Assembly (NCBI GenBank): GCA_963920765.1
Contig: OY987249.1
Location: 19,006,483 to 19,070,482 of the forward strand
Reading direction: 5' to 3'
Source of the DNA: Ulota crispa
Taxonomy: Eukaryota > Streptophyta > Bryopsida > Orthotrichales > Orthotrichaceae
DNA: 64,000 bases
Position numbers and translations under genes: made by a program. Positions 25,459 through 64,000 of this stretch are shown here, piece by piece (position 1 is the first letter of the stretch; each line of letters begins with the position of its first letter). The notes beneath the pieces are model-generated. The model saw nothing but the letters and a program-made list of their open reading frames with translations, did no database searches and had not been told where the DNA came from.

Positions 25459-28400
25459 ATGTCCTTGGCAAGCTTGATCATGATGCAAAGCTCCGGAGCC
25501 AGGAAGATCGAGGAGCCGAACACGCCGCGGCCGGGGGGAGTGCCGCAGGGCTCCGTGCTCGTGATCTTGGACGTCACCAAGGAGACCGGCACGGCGCCCG
25601 TGTACTGGGCGCTCAGCAACGTCGTCCGCCGCGGGGACAACATCAAAATCGTTGGCATTGTCACCCACGTCTGCAACCCAAGTACGCATCCCACCAACCG
25701 CTGAGCATCGCATCAAACTCTTAGCTTGAATCTTGTTTTTTAGGGTCGGCCGAGGTTCTGAGATTTGTATGTTTTGTGGGGGTGGTTCAGTGGGGTTTAA
25801 GGCACGAGTCGACAAGAACAGTTGGATCGGCTCGAACGGTCTCATGCTGCAACACGAGCTCAACATGAAGCGCACCTCGTTGGAAAACCTTCTTCACGTC
25901 AAAGAGTGGTGCGAAAAAGCAGGGGTATGTATGCAAATCGATGTCCCTTTTGGATCTGGTTCGAATCGGGCATGGAAGTACTCGGCCATTGTGGAGATCT
26001 GGAATCACGTTCGCAAGTCTCGCTTTTCTGACTATGGCAAAATTGCAGGTGCATCTGGAGCTCGACATGAAGGCAGGGTACGTAACGAAGGAGATCGTCG
26101 TCGATGAAGCGAAAGCCATTGGCGCCTACCACGTCGTGCTTGATAAGTGAGAGCTTTTTGTTTGTTGGAACTGATCACTAGTCACGCATGATGTTGTTGC
26201 TGGTCGTGCTTGAAGAAGAAAGTCGATTGATTGATGATGCGTTATGCTGGCATTGCAGGAACATGAAGAGTGACCGGAAGTACTTCATCGAGCATTTGAC
26301 GTGCTTTGTGTCGCGAGCGCGTCAAAGTGGCGGGGTGGAAACCATCCGCTCTTTTTCAGTGACGAAGCAGCTGCCGCCGCTGGTACCCACGCCGCCCAAC
26401 ACGCGCCTGAATAATGGAAACAACAACAACAACAACAACAACAACCAGAGCTTGAGCGTACTACCGACGGCGTCGTCCGGCTCCGTGGCCTCCGTGGCAT
26501 CGCAGGGGTCGAACTTCTCCCACCGTGGATCGGCATCGTCGAACTCGTTCGGGGTGGTCTCCAGTGACGGCTTCCTCACGCAAGACAGCGACACATTCTC
26601 GGGCGCGCCCACGACGAGCGAGTCCTACAACGATCGCTACCCGGAGATTCAGGAGATCCCGTCTCGGTTACCACATTCCGAGCCAGGCTCACAGAAGAGT
26701 AACTCCATTCCGAGTACGCCGCGAGGTGAAGTCGAAACGGGGTACAATCTCGTCAACCGGAAACCAGCTCTTCGGACATGGCTTGCGGAAGACGATGTGC
26801 CGTCATTCAATGAGAATCCCAATCATGGCTCTTTCGGTGATCGAACCAGCAACAACGGCAATAAAGTCACTGCAGCAAACGAACCGCAAATCGTCAAACG
26901 CATGAGTCCCCGTCTGAGTCCTCATCTGAGTCCGCATGTCAGTCCGCCGGCGACGCTGGAAAAACCTGCGCCTTTGCCCCTTCCCCCTTCTTCGCATTCG
27001 TCGCCAGGGAGGTCGTACGCATCTGTGAGGACGTTCCACCCTCTTGGTGTTAAGAGCTCGCCGCCGGTGTCACGCATGCCGTCGCCTCCCCGCAGCAAGT
27101 TGTCGCAGAGTTTGCACAAGACTGTGTGGATATGGACACGCAGCAAGGAGGTCATGCGGTCGGCTGTTGAAGTAGGATGGACCACGTTCGTTTTCACTCC
27201 GGACACGAAGCACATGGCCATGCAATGGACTTGTAAGTGACGTCGATCGATCCCGTTCTGTTCAAGTTGAACTCATTTGTGGCTGTATGTGTTTTGAAAC
27301 TGTTTCGCATTTATTTGTGCAGCCATCGAGTGGATTAAGCCCTTGTTTCTCGAAGGAGGCCGGTTTCTCAACCAGGAGAGCAAGCAAGTGGCGCTGCTTG
27401 GGCAGGTGTACTCTGGCGAGCAGCTGGACTACCTCCCTGCCATGATGGGCTCCACCGAGATCGTCGTTATCAATGACCTCGACTGGCAGGTACACAAACT
27501 CACAACATATATTTTCTAGCTAAATTTTGAACAGAATCCAGTTGTGGATCATCATAAGTTTACGTTCACAATACAATGTAGACTACATCCAAATAGGGGT
27601 TCTAGTACGCAAACCTTGTTTCTAAAAACCAGACGCGGATTTATTCCAAGGCATGCAAGGCAAAGCACTTTGCAGATGGTCCAGAATTTGCTGCGTCCAA
27701 AGTTGGAAAGAAAGAGGAAACTTTTCGCAGTTCAATTGCGAGCTTACGGGCGCTGTGGTTGTCACTTCTGTAGGTGATTTCGCCTGAAGATATAGTAGCG
27801 GCTTTTCAAGGCAGGCGAACGCAGCTCTTCGCCACCGCCAATTCGGCTGCGGACTGTCAAGTTTACTTGGAGGTCCTCCCCTTAACCTACCTGCCATGGT
27901 CATTGAGCTTGAGCTTGATCTTGTTGTACATCTTGGGGTTATGTGTTGCATTGCTTAGATGACGCGTGTAACTGCAGGCTCTTGAAGTAGGAACCGATGG
28001 TGTGGTGCTTCACACCGAGAGCATCTCCGAAATCATTGCTCTCAAGGTACGCCGACCTTTCCCGTCAAAACCCTGGTTCAGAAGAGAGACGTTGCTGGTG
28101 GCAGGAGATCGGTTTCAGGGTTTTAGGGTTAGTGGATTCAGGGTTTAGGGTTTAGGGTTTTAGTGTTCTCCACCTAAGCTCGCTGCGTTTTGCAATGCAG
28201 GAGTGTCACAGTGATCCCAAATATGATTTCACTTTTAGCTCAAGTGGCTGAGAACACTGCTAATAAGTTAAAGTTGTCAGACTTGACACTGGAAAGTTCT
28301 CATGTTTTTTAGCTGTATAATTTTTTTGGTAGCAATCCTTCGAACTTTTATCCAGTTGAGAGATCGTTGTGCAGGACTATTTGACTGCCACGACGGGTGA

Positions 28401-30341
28401 GAAGGCGTTGGCAACTCTTGAGCCGTCCGTGAGGGAGGTGGGAGAGTTGAAACTGGCGGTGGCGGAGTCGACCTCCATGGCAAGATCCGAGACGAACTCC
28501 GACCGGGTGGTGTCTTCTCCGAGGTTTTATCGGATGGGCTCCTCCCCAAGATCAGAGCCGAATCCACTGACCCCGAAATATGATGCCACCGTCTTCCACC
28601 GAGCCGGCTCGTCTCCACGGCTGGTCGACTCGCCGAGACACTCTTCGCACTTCCAAACACCGCAAGAGCAAGACTCCTCGCAGCAGCAACAGCAAGGGTC
28701 CAGGCTTGTGAGTGCTACTGTGAAGAGCACCGTGTCTGTCGGTGAAGGCGACCGCGTGGCTGTGGACCTTTGTAATCTGTTGAACCCCGGCGAAGCGTTA
28801 CTCGTAAGGCTCAACCTCCATCTCACCCTGGATTGGTCTTATATAATTTAACCTGTATTGTGTCGTGATCTGAGACTATGGCTAAATGTTTGTGCCGAGA
28901 GAGTTTTTGCTAAACAGAACTGTGTTCGTGAGTTTCAGGTGGGCTCCTTCTCCAGGGGTATGTTTCTGGTGCATTCCGAGGTCCAAGCTAACAACACCAG
29001 CCGACGCTCATTTCGTATCAATGCTGTGAGTGTGTCTCAAATCCCAAACTCCATCACTACTTACTTCCAACGCGTTATTCGTTAGTTTGGGAAAATGAGC
29101 TGTCCCAATTTGTACTCACCTAAATCTGAGACTGTCACCTTAATTTATGTGGAACCATATTCGTTAAATTCAGGAGGCCTCCTGAAACCTGCTTAATGAA
29201 CTTTTTGTCCAAATTTCCAGATGTTAATGAATTTTCTGTCCAAAAAGAGCGTCTTTTTGGAAGATATATATCTCATTTCATTAGAAAATAGTCAACAGAT
29301 TCCCAAACATGGCGTTCAATTCCAAAAACACCAAAAGTCCCACTTTGTAAGCATTTTCCCAAATTAACGAATAACGCGTTTTACACATTAAACCGCTTTC
29401 AAAGCATTCTTCACACTCCACTTTTCCCTTGCAAAAGAAAGAGGAAAAACCGCGTTAGGTATTAGACAAGTTGTGAACACATGTGCGGAGCTCCTTTGTC
29501 ATCCGCTATCAGAGAAGTTACCAGAAGAGAACATTCTTGTGCCCACCAAGATTTAAGAGTTGGATGCCTGTGAAGGATTTTACTGTTTTGTTAGTTCTAA
29601 TGAAACTAATCGTAGAGTGCCATCTAGTTTTGAGTGTTTTGTTTCATCATTAACCTGAGTGATCTTTTTTGAACTGTTTAGATTTTTTGGATTTTTTTCT
29701 GCAGTATGTGAGTGCCACTGGACGCCTTAATTGCCTAACTGATTGATGGATTGCGGATTGATGGATTGATTGGTTGATTGATGGATTGCTTGGACATGGC
29801 ATGGCATGGCAGGGGCCTGTGCATGCGTACACAGGCATGGCAGGGGGGCGTATCACGTACTTGTCTGAGCTGGAGTCAGGCAGTCACGTCTTGGCCGTGG
29901 ATGCTCATGGCAACCAGCGGACGGTGCTGGTGGGCCGGGTGTCCATTGAGACGAAGCCCCTCGTTTTGGTGCAGGTCGAGGCTGAGGGCGAAGCCTTCAG
30001 CGTCATGCTTCAAGATGCAGATTCTGTCCGCCTCGTTGTCCCTGCAGGTGCGTTGTTCATTAACCCCCTTTCAAAACCCTGCTCTTGCAAGCAATAAAAT
30101 CCACTTAATCCAGTACTAAGCCTGTCAAAAAAATAACTAAAACCCCTTTTGTGTTATTTAGAGCAAAGTCATGATGCCGAAACGTAGCCAAGCAGTCAAT
30201 TGCTGACATTGTGAATCTACTGTAGATATGCAACGTCGTGGTGGAGACCCTTGCGGTGAAGCCATCGCCGTGACAAAGCTGCAACCAGGAGACACGGTTC
30301 TCTTGAGCATGGAAGACAGCGACTGCTCATACGAACAGTAG
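25459..30341 (+). CDS. Fusion protein: USP-like domain + 3-dehydroquinate synthase II domain, 11 exons
   Basis: Exons: 25459-25681, 25791-25924, 26049-26146, 26259-27232, 27323-27489, 27774-27872, 27978-28046, 28375-28803, 28939-29025, 29813-30047, 30226-30341. They sum to 2631 nt, giving 876 residues. All introns are GT-AG and all phases match. Residues 32-176 match the USP-like domain found before the kinase in plant receptor-like cytoplasmic kinases (VLVILD start, VVLDKNMKSDRKYFIEHL end), but no kinase follows. Residues 177-438 form a low-complexity linker with an Asn run (203-214) and many Ser-Pro sites (367-383). From 439 (KTVWIWTRSKEVM) the protein is DHQS II, with GTDGVVLHTE, GEGDRVAVDLC, GSFSRGMFLVHSE and GPVHAYTGMAGG. 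In archaea this enzyme makes 3-dehydroquinate from an amino sugar acid; its plant role is unknown. An insert of about 100 residues (600-698) splits the domain, and the usual C-terminal tail is missing. Both halves share exon 4, so this is not two adjacent genes. Confidence 0.88.
26410..26448 (+). repeat. AAC trinucleotide repeat encoding an Asn run
   Basis: Repeated AAC codons (with one GGA/GGC-type interruption) encode the Asn-rich stretch in the linker. This is a microsatellite within coding sequence and is likely to vary in length. Confidence 0.7.
28114..28163 (+). repeat. Interstitial telomere-like TTTAGGG repeats in intron 7
   Basis: Three near-perfect agggttt units (gggtttagggtttagggttt), preceded by degenerate copies, lie between exons 7 and 8. 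The type is Arabidopsis-like telomere. Confidence 0.75.
29069..29380. mobile_element. MITE in intron 9 of the fusion gene
   Basis: The ends AACGCGTTATTCGTTA and TAACGAATAACGCGTT are perfect 16-bp inverted repeats. The next bases (gtttgggaaaatg / cattttcccaaat) continue the pairing. About 312 bp, non-coding. Confidence 0.65.
29738..29812 (+). repeat. GATT- and CATGG-rich tandem repeats at a splice acceptor
   Basis: Repeats of gattgatg and then catggcatggcatggcag run directly into exon 10. The acceptor AG is the end of the last catgg-type unit, and the region lacks the usual pyrimidine tract. Confidence 0.6.
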
Positions 30342-63296: not shown

Positions 63297-63705
63297 ACAT
63301 CCACTCACCCTCTCACTTACTTGCCCACTCACCCACTCACCCTCTCACTTACTTGCCCACTCACCCACTCACCCTCTCACTTACTTGCCCACTCACCCAC
63401 TCACCCACTCACCCACTCACCCACTCACCCACTCACCCACTCACCCTCTCACCCACTTACCCACGCACCCACTTACTCACCCACTAACCCACTTACTTAC
63501 TCACCCACTAACCCACTCACCCACTTACTTACTCACCCACTAACCCACTCACCCACTTACTTACTCACCCACTCACCCACTTACTTACTCACCCACTCAC
63601 CCACTTACTTACTCACCCACTCACCCACTCACCCACTCACCCAATCACCCACTTACTTACTCACCCACTTACTTACTCACCCACTTATACACTCACCTAC
63701 CTAAC
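63297..63705. repeat. Minisatellite, 8-bp CTCACCCA-type unit, about 410 bp
   Basis: The unit ctcaccca and variants (cttacttg, cttactta) repeat about 50 times. The left part has a 32-bp higher-order period, the later part often 24 bp, all multiples of eight. All three plus-strand frames are open over much of it because 8-bp units cycle the frames; the Thr/His/Pro/Leu/Ser 'protein' is an artefact. Confidence 0.85.
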
Positions 63706-64000
63706 CACCTCACCCTTGTTTCTTGCTTTTTTGATTTTTTGAATTTTAGCACGGTGTAATTGCTTGTGAAAATGAGATAAATTTTGGATTTGGCAAAATT
63801 TTGATAGACTCTACCCTCATCTTGATATTTGGGAAGTAAGGATGTTTTTTCCCAAGTTCAAAAAATATGTAATTTTCATTTAGAAGGTTGGAAAATTTCC
63901 TTATCATGGAATACTTCATAGGTTGATTTCCCTTAACTTCAAAATTCAATTTGGCTCATCTCCTCATCTACAAGTGCAAGCTTGGCTAAACTTCTTGAAG
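63706..64000. other. Right part of the minisatellite-bearing repeat
   Basis: It is the reverse complement of about 58245-58440 (ccttatcatggaa... and catctcctcatctac... blocks without the rest). It continues beyond the window. Confidence 0.55.

Follow-up and report, generated by a model that had tools for sequence, protein, structure and literature searches.

A moss gene family joining a USP-like domain to a 3-dehydroquinate synthase II domain

We analysed a 64,000-nucleotide stretch of the genome of Ulota crispa (contig OY987249.1 of assembly GCA_963920765.1, forward-strand positions 19,006,483 to 19,070,482; hereafter the window, with position 1 as its first letter), in which one gene encodes a domain resembling universal stress proteins (USP-like domain) followed by a 3-dehydroquinate synthase II (DHQS II) domain (Table 1). 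Spliced together, its 11 exons give a single open frame of 876 residues, starting at 25459 and with a stop codon ending at 30341, and all ten introns have GT..AG ends, with a weak donor (GTCCTC) at intron 6. Intron 9 (787 bases) contains, at 29069–29380, a 29-base inverted repeat that is 97% complementary and has arms 254 bases apart; at a guess, this is a small insertion of the miniature inverted-repeat transposable element type. Within exon 4 alone, the USP-like domain ends, a linker of some 256 residues follows and the DHQS II domain begins; the exon sits in a stop-to-stop frame of 352 codons that is open throughout. The model is collinear with database relatives (numbered from P0001), being 66% identical to P0001 over 99% of its length and 51% identical to P0004 over 100%, and the conservation of its N-terminus in Physcomitrium P0002 and Sphagnum P0004 (Table 1) supports the start codon. 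Searching the window by tblastn with five proteins (E 1e-3) returned this locus and no second DHQS or USP gene, and no RNA families or tRNAs were found there at default thresholds. An earlier reading of the DNA letters alone (the original prediction) had proposed a single fused gene joined inside exon 4, and we confirm that 25459–30341 is one gene fusing the two domains and not a local accident.

Table 1 Features of the fused gene, in window positions (residue numbers refer to the 876-residue model)
Feature	Position	Strand	Basis
Whole coding region, 11 exons	25459..30341	+	Open frame and splice sites; tblastn of P0001 tracks the exons
Exons	25459-25681, 25791-25924, 26049-26146, 26259-27232, 27323-27489, 27774-27872, 27978-28046, 28375-28803, 28939-29025, 29813-30047, 30226-30341	+	
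N-terminal segment, residues 1-29	25459..25545	+	Identity: 24/29 to P0002, 20/29 to P0004
USP-like domain, residues 30-184, exons 1-4	25546..26355 (introns counted)	+	Identity to kinase P0128; P0001 model; PDB 2gm3
Low-complexity linker, residues 185-440, wholly in exon 4, with short motif PALRTWLAED	26356..27123	+	
DHQS II N-terminal alpha/beta half, residues 441-592	27124..28386	+	PF01959 in two stretches; 128/152 identical to P0001
Low-complexity insert within DHQS II domain, residues 593-692, clade A only	28387..28686	+	Spacing; 33/75 aligned residues identical to P0001
DHQS II C-terminal half, residues 693-876, without most of the canonical tail (ARH.G...E)	28687..30338	+	Pfam stretch 691-870; lost residues

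Several mosses share the fusion. With the full-length model as query, 15 proteins were returned, 13 of which carry an at least partial USP-like domain and the DHQS II domain; of the other two, P0005 starts in the linker and P0015, at a guess an algal protein, lacks the USP part. The source organisms given in this search were Physcomitrium patens, Ceratodon purpureus and three Sphagnum species. With P0017 (Ceratodon), P0126 (Sphagnum magellanicum) and P0127 from further searches, 16 database proteins hold at least part of both domains (P0003 and P0017 start within the USP domain; P0126 and P0127 stop within the DHQS domain), and all 12 with a named source are from mosses (Physcomitrium, Ceratodon and four Sphagnum species). 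Their database names are ‘uncharacterized’, ‘hypothetical’ or ‘unnamed’ protein, or ‘3-dehydroquinate synthase’. Two of them, P0011 and P0013, are open reading frames (ORFs) of 706 and 710 residues whose contigs do not exceed 3113 and 2671 bases; being so short, these entries look like complementary DNA (cDNA).

A search with the DHQS region returned 538 proteins, of which we considered the best 120, with candidates of about 403 residues or longer; among these, P0018–P0125 (n = 108) are non-fused, 99 of them are 395–445 residues long, and the named sources are the liverwort Calypogeia fissa and seed plants. Comparison of two USP segments with P0016–P0125 (110 proteins; BLASTP, E 0.01) found the USP part in P0017 only and in none of the 108 non-fused proteins, in line with the expectation that plant DHQS II homologues normally stand alone. 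Likewise, Pfam Usp was absent from the nine of P0018–P0125 that exceed 445 residues (P0019, P0031, P0036, P0037, P0051, P0054, P0107, P0121 and P0122); P0122 is annotated as DHQS II joined to aldose 1-epimerase, and P0107 is, at a guess, from an alga. The restriction of the fusion to mosses is what these searches returned and not a proven limit: the best 120 of 538 could leave out a moss DHQS II that is short and stands alone, or a fusion from a fern or hornwort further down the ranking, and a USP search with the P0010 segment, which missed P0001, P0003, P0004, P0012 and P0017 (all with the domain at least in part), was not exhaustive.

That USP search did recover three proteins with a kinase domain, P0128 (Sphagnum jensenii, 55% identity), P0129 (Ceratodon, 49%) and P0130 (43%), so the view that this type of USP-like domain precedes a kinase stands, with two of the three examples from mosses. 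The segment in the window is 49% identical to that of P0128 over 150 residues, and pairs of fused and kinase proteins are 32–57% identical in this domain. The kinases also share the low-complexity linker and differ from the fused family in having a C-terminal protein kinase in the place of DHQS II; in the window, no protein kinase domain follows the USP part, Pfam finding only PF01959 on the 876-residue model. We take these kinases to be the family called ‘inactive protein kinase SELMODRAFT_444075-like’.

The assignment of the USP-like domain draws on structure as well as on this kinship. Scanned against Pfam, the window segment had no match with E of 10 or less; in the fused relatives, all scanned except P0011 and P0013, Usp fell below its 24-bit cut-off in P0006, P0007, P0010, P0014, P0126 and P0127 (best, P0014 at 21.7 bits) and gave nothing in P0001–P0004, P0008, P0009, P0012 and P0017. 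A structure model of the close relative P0001 has a block-mean predicted local distance difference test score above 90 over residues 31–140, and its top PDB match by Foldseek is the Arabidopsis USP 2gm3 (E 2.1e-4); the 2gm3 chain also ranks first in a profile search of PDB sequences, yet with E 0.063. As judged from this model, the USP-like part has the USP fold. The original prediction had further called the domain nucleotide-binding in type, which we could not substantiate: the strict form of the adenosine triphosphate (ATP) motif of USPs, G-2x-G-9x-(S/T), as given in the available text of PMC6560075, occurs in 0 of 17 fused and 0 of 3 kinase USP segments, and a relaxed pattern matches P0002 and P0130 elsewhere in the domain.

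Trees of both domains bear on the origin of the fusion. The DHQS-domain tree comprised 42 rows, including 12 non-fused plant proteins and 11 prokaryotic ones (prokaryotic rows came from 28 of 80 loci examined). Its 17 fused-family rows form one clade (100/99), which includes P0005 although no USP part was seen in it. This clade adjoins a stand-alone liverwort protein at 94/84, below the starred level, and the fused family and non-fused plant homologues together make up one land-plant clade (100/98). A single fusion would be the simplest history, given one fused clade next to a liverwort protein that stands alone. The window protein falls inside a subgroup that we call clade A, a placement that points to a moss source; we use ‘clade B’ for the remaining fused proteins, which are not one clade in the trees. 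In the USP tree, a branch of 100/99 separates 17 fused segments from the three kinases.

The DHQS II domain of the window is readily recognized by PF01959 (E 1.1e-84; 284.8 bits against a gathering cut-off of 22.2) but has lost many conserved residues. We defined 61 near-invariant columns as those with one residue in at least 95% of both 21 prokaryotic proteins (of at least 325 residues) and the 99 non-fused plant proteins of 395–445 residues. The window protein retains 45 and has 16 altered, so that calling it ‘the enzyme’, as had been done, is poorly founded. All 61 are intact in fused P0008 and P0012, neither of which was used for picking the columns; the non-fused plant proteins retain 58–61 (n = 99) and the prokaryotic relatives 60–61 (n = 21), both sets having partly served to pick them. 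Among the other fused proteins scored (P0126 and P0127 were left out), P0017 retains 59, Sphagnum P0006 and P0007 55, P0009–P0011, P0013 and P0014 49–52, and clade A 43–50. Five changes are found in all six clade A rows (N538D, P755S, R808K, E830D and T831S in window numbering), as is the loss of K804 (to S or Q), R872 and H873, which in the window are K804S, R872C and H873S. The canonical C-terminal tail is mostly gone from the window protein and clade A, and an insert inside the DHQS II domain lengthens the spacing there to 118–225 residues in six of six clade A proteins versus 43 in 11 of 12 other fused proteins (P0127 unmeasured). The losses in P0009, P0010, P0011, P0013 and P0014 are different ones, including W, I, P and N of the WxxIPxEN stretch, and by alignment these proteins are a further fused line with DHQS II decaying separately.

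Taken with the conservation of what remains, these changes point to a domain that is altered but needed: identity to P0001 is 84% and 86% in the two halves of the DHQS domain and 44% in the insert, a difference that favours function. We consider that the domain probably does not perform the canonical reaction. This doubt derives from the 61 columns and not from NCBIfam scores: the window protein reaches 215.8 against 485 for the 3-dehydroquinate synthase II equivalog, whose cut-offs were set for prokaryotes, and since nine plant proteins, including three stand-alone ones as well as P0008 and P0012, also miss all cut-offs (best, P0018 at 329.8), the score is no argument against an enzyme.

We therefore favour, at a probability of roughly 0.58, a moss gene family of one-fusion origin in which clade A, with the window protein, uses DHQS II as an output or ligand-binding domain that has lost the canonical reaction. 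On this account, in an ancestor of Sphagnum, Ceratodon and Physcomitrium a USP-kinase would have contributed its N-terminal USP-like module to a DHQS II gene, and the fused gene would then have duplicated, as the trees suggest. The alignment shows that few or none of the conserved enzyme residues are missing in one line (P0008, P0012 and P0017), whereas every clade A copy seen has lost some, the rest of the domain staying well conserved. The USP-like domain might sense stress or a partner, or dimerise, as it perhaps does before a kinase, and the clade A DHQS II domain, no longer carrying out the deamination dependent on nicotinamide adenine dinucleotide and the ring closure, might serve as its output or ligand-binding partner; we accordingly read the window domain as a putative regulatory or ligand-binding derivative. 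A broader proposal, that in mosses an enzyme domain replaced the kinase as USP output, with all DHQS II tied to the module and off the plastid and clade A regulating stress responses without enzymatic activity, by reading a shikimate-type metabolite, seems to us doubtful.

The clade A substitutions could alternatively mark an active enzyme with altered substrate or chemistry, similar to the 3-amino-4-hydroxybenzoic acid synthases (BagC/FevH type) of the same family, with the USP part as its regulator. A new activity predicts recurrent identical substitutions in a domain that stays well conserved between mosses, as is the case in clade A, and the NCBIfam BagC/FevH entry attests to other chemistry in the family. 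However, the window protein shows no kinship to that type (it scores 130.3 bits where the cut-off is 750, and less than the 158–185 of P0008, P0012, P0017, P0018, P0020 and P0066, which have at least 58 conserved residues or are stand-alone kin), and the changes at K804, R872 and H873 with the missing tail would fit poorly with a close mechanism, which leaves this reading unlikely. Still less probable is a regulated canonical enzyme relocated out of the plastid. It may well describe P0008 and P0012 with their full sets of conserved residues, and acidic residues outnumber basic ones in 8 of the 10 non-clade-A N-termini listed; the 16 altered residues and the mostly absent tail in the window argue against it, as does the literature we found, in which no plant homologue has been shown to carry out the canonical reaction. 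By composition, the N-terminus of the window protein is not clearly distinct from a transit peptide (3 acidic, 3 basic and 7 Ser/Thr in the first 40 residues versus means of 1.2, 4.8 and 8.8 in the 99 non-fused plant proteins). The change of compartment raised in the original prediction is possible.

That the gene is a decaying pseudogene is very improbable: it would account for the lost residues and the low-complexity insert, but all 11 exons are open, the domains are conserved far above the linker and insert, and identical changes occur in clade A of Physcomitrium, Ceratodon and Sphagnum. Two adjacent genes wrongly joined, an idea that gains from the gene model being known from genomic DNA alone, are scarcely credible, and we rejected them as an artefact because the join lies within one exon and recurs in Sphagnum, Ceratodon and Physcomitrium entries; the seemingly cDNA-derived P0011 and P0013 argue the same way.

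Several points weigh against the account that we favour. The single fusion, a sensing or dimerising role of the USP-like part and the idea that clade A has given up the canonical reaction are all read from sequence comparison. With three kinases only, the USP tree cannot single out the source kinase of the module. Many of the clade A changes are conservative (N to D, R to K, E to D, T to S). Sequence searches of the PDB turned up no solved DHQS II structure, so the lost residues cannot be mapped onto an active site; a Foldseek search with the model of stand-alone liverwort P0018 likewise gave no PDB match at E 0.001 or better, and the family may so far have no solved structure. Moreover, P0005 (clade A) and P0016 are transcript-like ORFs without the USP part, which suggests that the USP and DHQS parts may not always be made together; P0016, an ORF of 505 residues, is 99% identical to P0012 over its last 472 residues and has a different N-terminus, and is possibly a second transcript or a retained intron.

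The linker offers a hint, and no more, of a link between fused proteins and kinases. RxWL with a following acidic residue occurs in the linkers of six of six clade A proteins and two of the three kinases, P0128 lacking it. For the two kinase matches, 7 and 69 of 5000 shuffles score as well, across 15 linkers and uncorrected for their number, and the test is weak because a plainly different stretch in P0126 is comparably rare (35 of 5000 shuffles).

Against known systems, the fusion is a new combination of known domains, its function being predicted from sequence. The window domain shares PF01959 homology with the archaeal DHQS II proteins MJ1249 and OE1475F, and the single PF01959 domain is also what liverwort P0018 and the seed-plant homologues have, without the USP part. 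According to the parts of PMC4162585 available, a role in 3-dehydroquinate synthesis has been tested in H. salinarum and M. jannaschii, and the M. maripaludis homologue is dispensable for aromatic amino acids. In plants, the canonical reaction appears as a name only in the literature found, and no paper showing the function of plant DHQS II homologues was found, including the accessible portion of PMC8921776. Plant USPs are joined to kinases, U-box, SWIM zinc finger, HD-Zip, cation exchanger and IKI3 partners in seven flowering plants (PMC6560075, in the text available), likewise a USP with a second module; DHQS II is absent from that list and would be an additional partner. The original prediction had professed not to know the architecture: we found no paper naming it in the openly licensed literature (including the available parts of PMC11439500 and PMC8945279), although it is not private to this genome, being a small family in several mosses.

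DHQS II homologues are common in plants, and Physcomitrium, a moss amenable to gene removal, holds the intact copy P0012 beside the degenerate P0001 and P0002, which makes the role of plant DHQS II directly testable. If our account is right, clade A would be a clear example of how an ancient enzyme fold can be put to new use after a signalling domain.

Elsewhere in the window, positions 63301–63715 are a minisatellite with units of 16 or 24 bases in about 25 or about 17 copies.

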